This document shows positions 9,174-45,987 of a DNA stretch of 50,703 bases, piece after piece. Both the position numbers and the translations under genes were made by a program. Position 1 is the stretch's first letter; each line of letters opens with the position of its first letter. The stretch is from Deltaproteobacteria bacterium RIFCSPHIGHO2_02_FULL_40_28 (GTDB lineage Bacteria > UBA10199 > 2-12-FULL-40-28): the NCBI GenBank assembly GCA_001798135.1, contig MGRJ01000005.1, positions 1 through 50,703 on the forward strand, in the 5' to 3' direction. The notes under the pieces are model-generated. The model was not told the origin of the DNA, searched no databases, and worked only from the letters and a program-made list of their open reading frames with translations.

Positions 9174-9409
9174 GGGCTTGTTGAAAAATGTAGTTTTCCA
9201 CTAATTCTGTCATTCCCGCGGAGGCGGGAATCCATCTTGGTTCCCCTCCTTTGTAAGGAGGGGTTAGGGGAGGTAGAGAGTTTAGTAAGACTCTACCCCC
9301 TCCAACTCCCCCTTACAAAGGGGGAGAGTACAGATGGATCCCTGCAGGAGTTTACCCCTGCGAAGGCAGGGGCAGGGATGACAGAGGAATGACATTCTTC
9401 AACAGACCC
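9174..9409. mobile_element. MITE-like element, copy 3 (236 bp), with internal repeat insertion
   Basis: The ends GGGCTTGTTGAAAAATG and CATTCTTCAACAGACCC are inverted repeats with few mismatches. Interior hairpins GTCATTCCCGCGGAGGCGGG and the complement-type GCAGGGATGACAGAGG match the other copies. A second repeat pair (CCCCTCCTTTGTAAGGAGGGG and CCCCCTTACAAAGGGGG, 9242-9330) has been inserted, making this copy about 100 bp longer than copies 2 and 4. Confidence 0.75.
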
Positions 9410-9986: not shown

Positions 9987-10083
9987 AGAATTCTATGCCT
10001 TGATCTTTTAGTTTGCTAGTTTTTATAAAATAGAGTATCAATGAATTGTAGGGGCGGGGTGACCCCACCCCTACGTAGAAAAT

Positions 10084-14239: not shown

Positions 14240-14872
14240 TCACGGATAATATTCATCCAATTCCCATTTTAATGGGTTGTCATTAATGTATTTTCTAATC
14301 TGATTAAGATCAATTTCATTTCGAATAATATGTTCGTAATAATTGCGTTGCCAGAGACGTTTTGTGAAAGATGGCCATTGGTTGTATTTTACATTATGTG
14401 AATAACGGTTTGTTGTGAATGATTTAAATTGATGGACAATGTCGAATAATGAAAACGTAGGGGCAGGCCCCTGTGCCTGCCCGTTATTTGGGCAACCACG
14501 GGGGGTTGCCCCTACCAAACCAATAATTCCATGTATGTGGTTTGGCATAATGATAAATTCATCCAAATTTATTCCATAATATTTTGGGATTTCTTCCCAA
14601 ATTTTTTTCACCATCCTTCCTGCATCATTAAACCTCATCTCTCCATTCTTAATTTCCCCAAACAAACATTCTCTATTTTGAACACATATGGTTATTATTC
14701 CCCCCTCCCTTGAGGGGAGGGGGTTGGGGGAGGGTGAAAATTCCAAATTACCCCTCACCCTGCACCCTCTCCCCCAAGGGGAGAGGGGAATTATAGAAGG
14801 GGAAAAAACTAGGAAGAGGAAGTTGTGGGGAAAAATAAAAAAAGTGAAAAAAATTTTAACGATATACTTCAC
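14240..14872 (-). CDS. REP-associated tyrosine transposase (RAYT), copy A, with a REP inside its own gene
   Basis: The conserved core is a Y1/HUH transposase: ITICVQNRECLFGEI, EFIIMPNHIHGIIGLV (HUH metal site), WQRNYYEHIIRNE (candidate catalytic Tyr) and YINDNPLKWELDEY. Such enzymes nick and move REP palindromes. Two oddities are visible. Residues ATPRGCPNNGQAQGPAP, right after HIHGIIGLVG, are encoded by a GTAGGGGC-family palindrome (14457-14515). The normal N-terminus is replaced by sequence translated from the CCCTCTCCC repeat (14698-14795), leaving only a GTG at 14872 as a possible start, inside the neighbouring toxin gene. Activity is therefore doubtful. The 3' half is almost identical to the copy at 15368. 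Confidence 0.75.
   Translation of the reverse strand: MKYIVKIFFTFFIFPHNFLFLVFSPSIIPLSPWGRGCRVRGNLEFSPSPNPLPSREGGIITICVQNRECLFGEIKNGEMRFNDAGRMVKKIWEEIPKYYGINLDEFIIMPNHIHGIIGLVGATPRGCPNNGQAQGPAPTFSLFDIVHQFKSFTTNRYSHNVKYNQWPSFTKRLWQRNYYEHIIRNEIDLNQIRKYINDNPLKWELDEYYP
14457..14515. repeat. 59-bp GTAGGGGC...GCCCCTAC composite palindrome inside RAYT copy A
   Basis: The same 59 bases recur at 15612-15670 and 15981-16039. They have two hairpins: GGGGCAGGCCCCTGTGCCTG and TGGGCAACCACGGGGGGTTG. Confidence 0.9.
14698..14795. repeat. CCCTCTCCC/GGGAGAGGG paired repeat
   Basis: There are two hairpins, CCCCTCCCTTGAGGGGAGGG and CTCTCCCCCAAGGGGAGAG, joined by GTGAAAATTCCAAATTACCC. The same two-hairpin unit occurs at 15860-15950 and, inverted, at 25163-25256. 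Confidence 0.85.
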
Positions 14873-15367: not shown

Positions 15368-15919
15368 TTAAATGTTATTAAAGTAAGTTTTTGTATTTTC
15401 ATAATATTCATCTAATTCCCATTTTAATGGGTTGTCATTAATGTATTCTCTGATCTGATTAAAATCATTTTCATTTCGAATAATATGTTCGTAATAATTG
15501 CGTTGCCAGAGACGTTTTGTGAAAGATGGCCATTGGTTGTATTTTACATTATGTGAATAACGGTTTGTTGTGAATGATTTAAATTGATGGACAATGTCGA
15601 ATAATGAAAACGTAGGGGCAGGCCCCTGTGCCTGCCCGTTATTTGGGCAACCACGGGGGGTTGCCCCTACCAAACCAATAATTCCATGTATGTGGTTTGG
15701 CATAATGACAAATTCGTCCAATTGAATTCTATCAATATGGTTTGGTAAATCATTCCATGTTGCCATTACGATTCTACCAAAATCATTTAAAACCATTTCT
15801 GCTGCAATTATTTCCCCAAACAAACATTCTCTATTTTGAACACATATTGTTACTATATTCCCCCCTCCCTTGAGGGGGAGGGGGTTGGGGGAGGGTGAAA
15901 ATTCCAAATTACCCCTCAC
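15368..15919 (-). CDS. REP-associated tyrosine transposase (RAYT), copy B, with a REP inside its own gene
   Basis: It is a close relative of the copy at 14240, with the same motifs: VTICVQNRECLFGEI, EFVIMPNHIHGIIGLV, RLWQRNYYEHIIRNE and YINDNPLKWELDEY. The first third has diverged from copy A (IIAAEMVLNDFGRIVMATW) and instead matches the fragment at 1-123. The REP-derived block ATPRGCPNNGQAQGPAP follows the HUH motif in frame. The N-terminus (RGNLEFSPSPNPLPL) is translated repeat DNA with only a GTG start. The shared insertion implies that the REP entered before the gene duplicated. Confidence 0.75.
   Translation of the reverse strand: MRGNLEFSPSPNPLPLKGGGNIVTICVQNRECLFGEIIAAEMVLNDFGRIVMATWNDLPNHIDRIQLDEFVIMPNHIHGIIGLVGATPRGCPNNGQAQGPAPTFSLFDIVHQFKSFTTNRYSHNVKYNQWPSFTKRLWQRNYYEHIIRNENDFNQIREYINDNPLKWELDEYYENTKTYFNNI
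15612..15670. repeat. 59-bp GTAGGGGC composite palindrome inside RAYT copy B
   Basis: It is identical to 14457-14515 and lies in frame after the HIHGIIGLV motif. Confidence 0.9.
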
Positions 15920-22953: not shown

Positions 22954-23811
22954 ATGAATTTAACCCTCTTTAAAAAAGCAACCCCCCTCTGGCTTCTTAT
23001 TGCTATGAGTATGCCCTTGGTGGCGGTAGCACAAGATCAAGATAATAATCCTCCAGGCGCTAAAGGTGGACCAGGTACCAATTGGGAAAATCCAAAAGGG
23101 CCAGAAGGTGGACCAGGCGCTTCCCCCAATCAACGTTATGACAAGGCCGATCGTAACCACGATGGCACTGTTGATGATACCGAAAAAGCCCGAGCCCAGG
23201 AAATTTTAGAAAATCGTCGGGATAACCGGGACCCTGACAACAACCCTCCAGGACCTAGAGGCGGAGAAGGTACAAATTGGGAAAACCCTCCGGGAGCTGA
23301 AGGTGGAGCAGGGGCATCCCCCAATGCAAAACCACCACTGGGTGAAAAAGCTGATTTAAATAACGATGGCACTGTTGATGATTTTGAAAAACGAAAAGCT
23401 ATTCAACACAGACAACACAATGGACATAGAGATCAAGATAACAATCCCCCAGGAGCTAAAGGCGGACCTGGAACAAACTGGGAAAATCCTAAAGGCCCAG
23501 CAGGTGGACCAGGAGCATCACCTGATCGTAGACATGATCGCGACAACAACCCTCCAGGAGCTAAAGGCGGACCTGGAACAAACTGGGAAAATCCCAAAGG
23601 CCCAGCAGGTGGACCAGGCGCATCACCTGATCGTAGACATGATCGCGACAACAATCCCCCAGGAGCTAAAGGCGGACCTGGAACAAACTGGGAAAATCCT
23701 AAAGGCCCAGCAGGTGGACCAGGCGCATCACCTAATCGTCATCCAAATGGTGGCGGCGGTGGCAACCCTCCAGGACCTCGTGGTGGCCCAGGTGGTGGTG
23801 GAAGACGGTAA
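22954..23811 (+). CDS. Secreted Gly/Pro-rich tandem-repeat protein with EF-hand-like loops
   Basis: A signal peptide (LWLLIAMSMPLVAVAQ, cleavage near residue 27) is followed by five copies of a roughly 35-residue unit, DNNPPGAKGGPGTNWENPKG then PAGGPGASP plus a short basic spacer. The first two units are diverged and separated by EF-hand/dockerin-like loops, DKADRNHDGTVDDTEK and EKADLNNDGTVDDFEK. The last three are near identical. The C-terminus is Gly/Arg-rich. AAAGGAG lies upstream of the ATG. It is probably exported and may bind calcium; the conserved TNWENP is the likely functional part. The family is not known to me. It lies 58 bases after the radical SAM gene in the same direction. Confidence 0.85.
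   Translation: MNLTLFKKATPLWLLIAMSMPLVAVAQDQDNNPPGAKGGPGTNWENPKGPEGGPGASPNQRYDKADRNHDGTVDDTEKARAQEILENRRDNRDPDNNPPGPRGGEGTNWENPPGAEGGAGASPNAKPPLGEKADLNNDGTVDDFEKRKAIQHRQHNGHRDQDNNPPGAKGGPGTNWENPKGPAGGPGASPDRRHDRDNNPPGAKGGPGTNWENPKGPAGGPGASPDRRHDRDNNPPGAKGGPGTNWENPKGPAGGPGASPNRHPNGGGGGNPPGPRGGPGGGGRR
23437..23751 (+). repeat. Three tandem 105-bp coding repeats
   Basis: Units begin at 23437, 23542 and 23647, exactly 105 bases (35 codons) apart, with only a few substitutions. Because the unit is a multiple of three, other frames also stay open here; those are shadows. Confidence 0.9.
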
Positions 23812-25094: not shown

Positions 25095-25162
25095 AAGACT
25101 CGCTTTTATCATTTCCACATCAATTATCATCACCATACAACTTTGTCATCCTGACAATTAAA

Positions 25163-25300
25163 ATTCCCCTCTCCCCTTGGGGGAGAGGGTGCAGGGTGAG
25201 GGGTAATTCGAAATTTTCACCCTCTCCCTAACCCTCCCCCCTCAAGGGGGAGGGGATAAGATGGATTCCCTGCCTTCGCAGGGATGACAAAGGGGCACGG
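25163..25300. repeat. Paired CCCTCTCCC repeat plus a GCAGGGATGAC hairpin fragment
   Basis: 25163-25256 is the inverted form of the unit at 14698-14795. It is followed by TGGATTCCCTGCCTTCGCAG then GGATGACA, as in the interior of the MITE-like elements. The gap continues to 25663 and holds the sites listed next; no gene is visible. Confidence 0.8.
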
Positions 25301-44127: not shown

Positions 44128-44258
44128 GGGTCTGTTGAAAAATATAGTTTCCAACCAATTTTGTCATTCCCGCGAAGGCGGGAATCCAGTCTTTTCAAGA
44201 GTTTCTGGATCCCTGCCTTCGCAGGGATGACAGAGGGGCGACATTTTTCAACAATCCC
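44128..44258. mobile_element. MITE-like element, copy 4 (131 bp)
   Basis: The ends are GGGTCTGTTGAAAAAT and the complement-type CATTTTTCAACAATCCC. The interior holds GTCATTCCCGCGAAGGCGGG and CCCTGCCTTCGCAGGGATGA. The left 40 bases are nearly identical to the copy at 125. It lies between yidC and mnmE; an open frame through it could extend mnmE upstream, but that extension is repeat DNA. Confidence 0.8.
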
Positions 44259-44304: not shown

Positions 44305-45843
44305 ATGTCCAATTCTTCTACCATTGTAGCGCAAGCAACAGCCCCGGGGGAAGCCTCGATAGCCATGGTTCGTTTGTCGGGGCCACAGGCCTTATCTTTT
44401 TTACAAAAAATTTTTAGGAAGAAAAAATTAAAGAATCACCCTCTCCCATCAAGGGGGAGGGGAGAAGACTTACTTTTTGTTCATGAAGGGGGGAGTTGGG
44501 AGGATTTTGAAACACATAAAATGTATTTTGGGGAAATCATGATCCCTCACCCCCACCCCTCTCCCTTCGGTACAGGGGTGAAGGATGGAACAAACAATAT
44601 TCCCCTCTCCCCCTTGGGGGAGAGGGTGCAGGGTGAGGGGGTTGTTTTGGATCAAGCGATGGTGGTTTTTATGAAAGCCCCTCATAGTTTTACCGGAGAA
44701 GATGTAGCCGAAATTCATATGCACGGAAGTCCCGTTGTGGTGGAGCAAGTTTTAAAAATTTTGGTGGGTTTGGGAGCTACCAGTGCCAAGCCAGGAGAGT
44801 TTTCCAAAAGAGCTTTTTTAAATGGCAAGATGGATTTAAGCCAGGCCGAAGCCATTGCAGATTTAATTGCCAGTAAAAGTGAGTTGGCTGCTAAAAACGC
44901 TCTGAGTCAGTTAGGAGGAAATTTATCACGCTTGGTGGAATCGCTTCGGCAAGATTTAATTCAGGTGATGAGTCGTTTGGAGTTGGGTTTTGATTTTATC
45001 GAAGAAGATGTAGCACTTTTTAATCCTAAAGAATGCCTTTTAGTTTTAGAAAAAATTAAAACCACAAGCAAACGCCTGCTTGCTTCTTTTCAAACGGGGC
45101 AACTCTACAAACATGGATTGAAGATAGCCCTGGTTGGAAAACCCAATGTTGGTAAATCGAGTTTGCTCAATGCTTTTTTAGAAGAAGATAAAGCCATCAC
45201 TCATAGCGAACCCGGAACTACCCGTGATGTAGTGATGGGGGAAATTAAACTCTCTGGCATACCCATTCAAATTTATGACACAGCTGGATTAAGAGAGGCA
45301 GCTCATCCCGTAGAACAAGAAGGAATCAAACGATCTGAAAATTTAATTGAAAAAGCAGACCTCGTACTGGTGATTTTAGATTCAAGTAATCCTTTAACTT
45401 TAGAAGATCATCAAATTTTAGAGAAAATAAAGTTAAAGAAACACTTGAAGGTAGCAAATAAAATCGATTTAAAACCTGGATGGGATTTAAAAACGGTGGG
45501 AGATCAAATTTTTTCTGTTTCAGCTGTCACGAGTCAGGGTTTAAATGAAATTCTTGAAGAAATTCAAAAGCTTTTTTTAAAAGGAAGTTTGGAAATAGAT
45601 TCTGGTTTTGTACTGAATAATGTACGTCATCAAAAAATTTTACAGGAAGTTTTGGTACAGGTTGAAAATGTAGGGGCGGGGTTATCCCGCCCTGTAGGGG
45701 TAAATAATTATTCGCCCATACCAGAAGAATTGTTAGCAGAAGAATTGCGTCTCATCGCTCGTTTATTGGGAAACATTACAGGTGAAGTAAAGGATGAACA
45801 TATTTTGGACGAAATTTTTTCAAAATTTTGTATTGGGAAGTAA
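44305..45843 (+). CDS. mnmE: tRNA modification GTPase MnmE with three in-frame repeat insertions
   Basis: The ATG at 44305 (MSNSSTIVAQATAPGEASIA) matches the family start. Conserved parts follow: SFTGEDVAEIHMHG, KPGEFSKRAFLNGKMDLSQA, the G1 motif GKPNVGKSSLLNAF (about 277), TTRDV, DTAGLRE (about 325), NKID, and the C-terminal LLAEELRL...FCIGK. It acts with MnmG on U34 of tRNA. At 512 residues it is about 55 longer than usual. The excess is encoded by repeats: NHPLPSRGRGED (44438-44465), HPHPSPFGTGVKDGTNNIPL then SPLGERVQGEG (44544-44640), and VGAGLSRPVGVNN (45670-45699). All three fall in surface loops and leave the motifs intact. Confidence 0.95.
   Translation: MSNSSTIVAQATAPGEASIAMVRLSGPQALSFLQKIFRKKKLKNHPLPSRGRGEDLLFVHEGGSWEDFETHKMYFGEIMIPHPHPSPFGTGVKDGTNNIPLSPLGERVQGEGVVLDQAMVVFMKAPHSFTGEDVAEIHMHGSPVVVEQVLKILVGLGATSAKPGEFSKRAFLNGKMDLSQAEAIADLIASKSELAAKNALSQLGGNLSRLVESLRQDLIQVMSRLELGFDFIEEDVALFNPKECLLVLEKIKTTSKRLLASFQTGQLYKHGLKIALVGKPNVGKSSLLNAFLEEDKAITHSEPGTTRDVVMGEIKLSGIPIQIYDTAGLREAAHPVEQEGIKRSENLIEKADLVLVILDSSNPLTLEDHQILEKIKLKKHLKVANKIDLKPGWDLKTVGDQIFSVSAVTSQGLNEILEEIQKLFLKGSLEIDSGFVLNNVRHQKILQEVLVQVENVGAGLSRPVGVNNYSPIPEELLAEELRLIARLLGNITGEVKDEHILDEIFSKFCIGK
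44438..44465. repeat. CCCTCTCCC-type hairpin inside mnmE (1)
   Basis: CACCCTCTCCCATCAAGG continues to GGGAGGGGAG. It belongs to the same family as the intergenic unit at 25163 and is read in frame near residue 45. Confidence 0.8.
44544..44640. repeat. CCCTCTCCC-type paired repeat inside mnmE (2)
   Basis: A complete two-hairpin unit (CCCCTCTCCCTTCGGTACAGGGG and CCCTCTCCCCCTTGGGGGAG) adds about 32 codons between FGEIM and LDQAMVVFM. Confidence 0.85.
45670..45699. repeat. GTAGGGGC-type hairpin inside mnmE (3)
   Basis: GTAGGGGCGGGGTTATCCCG then CCCTGTAGGG. It is inserted before PEELLAEELRL, the start of the C-terminal conserved helix. Confidence 0.85.
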
Positions 45844-45869
45844 ATGCGGTTTTTCACCCAAATGTTGTG

Positions 45870-45966
45870 AGACCAGGAGAGGTGTTTTTTGAGGAGCCGA
45901 GGACTGTCTGACGAGCCTTCAGGGCGAGGAGTTCCGCAGGCCCGAAAAAAATACCTCTCCTGGTCT
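45870..45966. repeat. Long hairpin C (97 bp)
   Basis: The outer arms AGACCAGGAGAGGT (45870-45883) and ACCTCTCCTGGTCT (45953-45966) are perfect complements, extended by a T-run and an A-run. The GC-rich loop contains GACTGTCTGACGAGCC and AGGGCGAGGAGTTCCGCAGG. It fills the gap between convergent mnmE and the gene ending at 45988, so it may act as a two-way terminator, though the U-run position is not classical. Confidence 0.8.
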
Positions 45967-45987
45967 ATAAATTGCTTTATGTTGTAA

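Follow-up and report, generated by a model that had tools for sequence, protein, structure and literature searches.

In-frame palindromic repeat insertions in the mnmE gene of an uncultured deltaproteobacterium

How can one single-copy gene take up several repeats and keep an open reading frame? This question is raised by mnmE of Deltaproteobacteria bacterium RIFCSPHIGHO2_02_FULL_40_28, in which an initial annotation recognised three palindromic, repeat-derived segments that together explained the excess length of the gene. The genome comprises 2.16 Mb in 31 contigs and is essentially complete. The stretch of 50,703 nt that we analysed, referred to here as the window, is one entire contig (G000:C5).

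44305–45843, plus strand: mnmE, tRNA modification GTPase (Pfam; sole copy in the genome; fold match to MnmE crystal structures)

The gene is one unbroken ORF in which the Pfam domains TrmE_N, MMR_HSR1 and MnmE_helical are all present, and a sequence search with its product returned the MnmE crystal structures 1xzp, 3geh, 9hip and 3gee. Counted from the conserved start, the protein has 508 residues versus a class median of 456.5, and the 117 positions of the TrmE_N model are stretched across 170 of its residues. Several insertions within one gene could be read as damage to a decaying mnmE. The probability of this is close to nil: the genome holds no second MnmE, the frame is intact, all GTPase motifs are retained, as is the C-terminal FCIGK, and the predicted fold is confident.

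MnmE was aligned with its counterparts from 40 further genomes that belong to this order and class. The closest genomes compared are related at order level, with about 50% protein identity, and the insert boundaries are therefore approximate. All three segments are missing from 40 of the 40 other MnmE sequences, and the idea that they represent conserved MnmE sequence was rejected on this basis. The extra stretches amount to 21 residues for insert 1 (LKNHPLPSRGRGEDLLFVHEG), 28 residues for insert 2 (HPHPSPFGTGVKDGTNNIPLSPLGERVQ) and about 8 residues around GAGLSRPVGVNNYSPI for insert 3, with insert lengths of 66, 97–99 and 52 nt, respectively. Because the inserts are absent from the relatives and the protein exceeds the class median, the earlier statement on excess length is borne out, with the 50-odd extra residues falling in the three inserts. 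Predicted MnmE peptides that span inserts include DGTNNIPLSPLGER and VQGEGVVLDQAMVVFMK.

Inserts 1 and 2 belong to the same repeat family, termed family A.

About 44431–44496, plus strand: insert 1, about 21 residues (43–63), a family-A hairpin (44438–44465) plus about 10 other residues
44544–about 44642, plus strand: insert 2, a family-A dimer of about 28–32 residues (80–112)
25154–25261, no strand given: full family-A dimer, intergenic source-type copy, closed in all six frames

Family A consists of a pair of oppositely oriented G/C-rich hairpins with an A/T-rich spacer between them, a REPIN-like layout. Over 31 nt, insert 1 shares 90% identity with positions 25231–25261, the right half of the intergenic dimer. 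Its last 10 or so residues (EDLLFVHEGG) have no recognisable repeat likeness; the hairpin had been annotated correctly, but the insertion at the protein level is larger. For insert 2, 17 further matches were found in the genome (best E-value 5e-15); they are mostly partial, and most cover its right half at 92–98% identity. Family-A sequences begin with CCCTC or CCCCTC and carry neither a GTAG nor a CGTC tag, which sets inserts 1 and 2 apart from the GTAG-tagged REPs.

Insert 3 is of a different kind. GTAG-REPs have been defined (Di Nocera et al., 2013; PMC3733652) as stem-loops of 20–40 nt, one end of which is an unpaired GTAG.

45670–45692, plus strand: insert 3, unit 1, a GTAG-tagged REP (GTAGGGGCGGGGTTATCCCGCCC; 16 genome sites, none for the reversed control)
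45694–45721, plus strand: insert 3, unit 2, a palindromic GTAG unit (GTAGGGGTAAATAATTATTCGCCCATAC; GTAGGGG..CCCATAC) with an intergenic relative at L115:5458
10048–10074, no strand given: intergenic GTAG-REP palindrome nearby, related to insert 3 by repeat comparison

Allowing up to three mismatches, the GTAGGGGCGGGGTTATCCCGCCC pattern occurs at 16 genome sites including mnmE, a low copy number for a REP; two of the other sites are exact over 23 nt, and the reversed pattern is found nowhere. Single-strand folding gives strong hairpins in the inserts, and in unit 1 the 5′ GTAG is unpaired and precedes a 7-bp stem. The segment initially assigned to 45670–45699 is thus repeat-derived as proposed, but was drawn too short: because a second palindrome adjoins it and GTAG is unpaired before the hairpin, insert 3 is a GTAG-REP dimer that ends near 45721. 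The stem-loop with its unpaired GTAG, the genomic repetition and the dimeric arrangement all agree with GTAG-REP membership. So does the presence of RAYT genes, with three PF01797 loci in the genome, two of them within the window.

14240–14872, minus strand: RAYT-type (Y1_Tnp) ORF, PF01797, with an in-frame GTAG-REP (VGATPRGCPNNGQAQGPAP) at 14457–14515, behind the HIH motif
15368–15919, minus strand: duplicated second RAYT-type ORF, PF01797, with the same in-frame REP at 15612–15670, behind the HIH motif

The two ORFs share 300 nt at 98% identity, and both appear N-terminally altered. Each has the GTAG-REP in its middle and a family-A dimer in its N-terminal part (14696–14795 in the first). 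Such a transposase ORF holds its presumed substrate within its own gene.

Further cases of in-frame repeats were sought in a sample of 837 kb of the genome, taken as stretches. The SRP54-type GTPase gene ftsY (L107:1221–2213) has a composite insert (KMDPRLRGDDNDGGMTKIKSPLPGGEGVKGEGENLNTPHPAPSPPRGEGN) at L107:1848–2000, where the N domain meets the G domain. This insert is made up of two repeat families, is in frame and is missing in 11 relatives; the FtsY of one relative (L151) has a different repeat-like insert of its own, NPPLKKGGEGG, at the same N/G site. A PPTase-like ORF (L108:12000–12899) contains three repeat pieces, and a search for a solved structural relative of its product found none. 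The ftsY, RAYT and PPTase-like cases reject the notion that mnmE is the sole target.

The initial annotation had stated that the repeats keep frame and avoid stops. This holds for the inserts, but not for family A as such. In the sampled genome, six long family-A dimers from intergenic DNA lack an open frame in any of the six frames (the window dimer was scored at 25154–25296, which takes in an adjoining repeat), whereas the four genic copies, in mnmE, ftsY and the two RAYT ORFs, are each open in two to three frames. Short family-A hairpins are frequently open. The contrast is partly a matter of ascertainment, because a copy located within an ORF must have at least one open frame. It nevertheless shows that most family-A copies would terminate translation, and that the genic copies are a filtered set.

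To locate the inserts in the protein, we ran AlphaFold2 on the class alignment of MnmE. The model had a mean pLDDT of 83.6, with a confident core and an intact MnmE fold, and its top Foldseek matches were MnmE crystal structures. Insert 1 follows helix 1 of the N-terminal domain and insert 2 occupies a β-hairpin turn of the same domain; pLDDT falls below 50 at residues 44–63 and 89–103, respectively. Insert 3 sits between two C-terminal helices (440–461 and 474–492). Other low-confidence regions are a G-domain loop (296–305) and the C-terminal tail. The segments had been described as falling between conserved motifs; in the model, the first two inserts are loops of low confidence and the third is flanked by helices.

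These observations are very probably explained by neutral, selection-filtered insertion of mobile palindromes of the REP/REPIN type, translated as loop extensions. REP/REPIN-type palindromes would have landed in mnmE on at least three occasions, two of them involving family A and one a GTAG-REP dimer. Selection would have removed any copy that disrupted the reading frame or the protein fold, leaving in-frame, stop-free survivors in surface loops of variable length. The inserts are most likely translated and would extend the loops of a functional MnmE by nearly neutral, disordered stretches. For the GTAG unit, a RAYT (TnpA-REP) enzyme is the most likely agent of movement; family A has neither a linked RAYT nor a known transposase.

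Alternatively, the inserts might be skipped or removed by ribosomal bypassing, RNA excision or protein splicing, yielding a mature MnmE that lacks them. The byp elements of yeast mitochondria are an example of ribosomal bypassing, and the strong hairpins of the mnmE inserts would be in keeping with such a process. Yet the inserts are in frame and free of stops, when most full-length family-A copies have stops in every frame, and they lie in permissive loops and not at random places. If the inserts were skipped or excised, keeping the frame and avoiding stops would be unnecessary. Intein and intron features were also looked for: Pfam reported only MnmE and GTPase domains within mnmE, with no intein or splicing domain, and Rfam gave nothing above the gathering score, with weak sub-threshold matches only and no intron fold. 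Intein or intron membership was rejected on these grounds, and we regard skipping or removal in general as highly unlikely.

Insertion of repeats into MnmE recurs across the class. In at least four other species (genomes G029, G002, G015 and G033), long MnmE inserts are multi-copy repeats of the respective genome, with 68, 41, 10 and 12 own-genome matches; the copy in MnmE is part of each of these numbers, and some places in G029, whose element is palindromic, were counted on both strands. The G029 family also has 18 matches in the genome of the window, including one at 9241–9329. Its insert lies near insert 2, while those of G002 and G033 share a common loop after DTAG in the G domain and that of G015 lies between G4 and G5. 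Judging from the sequences of about 40 genomes, at least five unrelated families have entered MnmE independently, always in variable loops.

Such recurrence could mean that the inserts are adaptive, with peptides selected to alter MnmE, for example in its pairing with MnmG or in GTPase control. At least five different families recurrently enter MnmE within the class and several inserts occupy common loops, as this explanation would have it. However, the inserts have no peptide in common, are predicted to be disordered and vary from species to species, and FtsY and the Der linker are hit too. The guanylate kinase of R. conorii, which carries a Rickettsia palindromic element (RPE), is active with a changed substrate affinity and, as quoted in PMC2229807, was judged neutral or slightly harmful. 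An adaptive origin is thus very unlikely, and neutral insertion filtered by selection is preferred.

Der (EngA) was taken as a control gene in 36 genomes. Inserts of at least 20 residues were present in 4 of the 36, in every case within the natural linker that joins the G domains: in L195, L197, L215 and L219, which belong to the same order, this linker is 21–66 residues longer. The L197 insert looks repeat-derived, as judged by its peptide alone (STSPNPS). The Der of the window genome itself has no insert. Because the control has linker inserts, MnmE is heavily hit but not shown to be special. We distrust a Poisson estimate for three or more hits in one gene (0.005–0.07 expected genes per genome), since its event counts were guessed and inserts cluster. 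It is conceivable, if unlikely, that in this class the loops of conserved GTPases of translation and secretion (MnmE, FtsY and possibly the Der linker) form a recurrent landing niche for unrelated palindromic families, which at least five independent families entered in MnmE at above the uniform rate, through hairpin preference or usefulness. If this were true, hairpins would favour entering these genes, or the inserts would be useful.

The triple hit within one gene had been singled out as striking. This is partly weakened by the composite insert of ftsY, by the MnmE inserts of other species and by published cases: in-frame REPs in conserved genes have been described, with dimers making up more than half of them and with uvrA and uvrB each hit twice (PMC3733652), as have RPEs and intragenic MITEs (PMC10969869; PMC2229807). 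The insertions in mnmE are a known kind of event that is unusually dense here. As in the GTAG- and CGTC-tagged REPs of Di Nocera et al. (PMC3733652), short GTAG-ended palindromes form dimers, lie in frame in conserved genes, hit some genes twice and occur in a genome with RAYT genes. Unlike in that study, three sites and two unrelated families are found in one gene, family A is untagged, and the same gene is recurrently hit by different families across the class. What is new is that two families occupy three sites of one gene and that other families recur in it across the class. A search of open-access literature, a collection lacking most subscription journals, found no report on such inserts in MnmE.

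The suggested resemblance to RPEs is one of behaviour and not of identity. RPEs, known from Rickettsia, measure about 105–150 bp and have in-frame copies in conserved metabolic genes, whose proteins are believed to be functional (Ogata 2000, 2002, as cited in PMC10969869 and PMC2229807); the experimental precedent that comes nearest is the RPE-carrying guanylate kinase, which PMC2229807 quotes as active but changed in its affinity for substrate. The elements described here share with RPEs that they are multi-copy palindromes with intergenic and in-frame genic copies, the latter in conserved genes and located in loops. Compared by published description and by length, however, they are 28–99 nt long and outside the RPE range, come from other families and are read in different frames. 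Insert 3 is a GTAG-REP and the other two inserts come from a G/C-rich hairpin-pair family, so that the mnmE inserts behave like an RPE but are not one. Family A also resembles REPINs or BIMEs, which are inverted REP pairs, in having two opposed hairpins and a spacer, but it has no linked RAYT. Intragenic MITEs such as ERIC and Correia/NEMIS (PMC2229807) are likewise small non-autonomous repeats fused in frame, including in transposase genes; unlike these, the mnmE inserts showed no recognisable terminal inverted repeats from any known insertion sequence. With these findings, an uncultured class joins Rickettsia and a small number of REP-rich bacteria in which selfish palindromes are inserted in frame into proteins. 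The findings also offer a natural experiment on how mobile DNA lengthens proteins, on loop tolerance and on the gene preference of REP-type transposition.

With order-level relatives as the comparison, MITE-type ends were seen only on an element outside the gene.

44128–44258, no strand given: 131-nt MITE-like element in the yidC–mnmE gap, with near-complementary ends GGGTCTGTTGAAAAAT and ATTTTTCAACAATCCC

The DNA fold of this element has a z-score of −7.5. The palindrome precedes the likely ATG, yet the mnmE frame runs through it without a stop, so that a TTG at 44161 might serve mnmE as an alternative upstream start.

Downstream of mnmE, a repeat at 45865–45972 (RNA-like strand, plus) occurs at about 40 genome sites and has a conserved core of about 40–50 nt (GAGGACTGTCTGACGAGCC..GGGCGAGGAGTTCCGCA). 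It was found in this genome only, with no copy in 42 relatives and no Rfam match. Its flanking arms vary between copies, but in 21 of 22 they base-pair with one another over 21–31 bp. Of the two strands, one gives the better fold in 13 of 13 cases, and a T-run ends several of the copies. The core looks as if it were placed in the loop of intrinsic terminators. Elsewhere in the sampled genome, a giant ORF of more than 2900 codons (L109:1–8736, minus strand) contains, in similar contexts, three copies of a repeat-like peptide (TSPLPQGGGAGGG or a closely related variant). Within the window, the ORF at 22954–23811 contains tandem 105-nt coding repeats (DNNPPGAKGGPGTNWENPKGPAGGPGASP) at 23035–23745.
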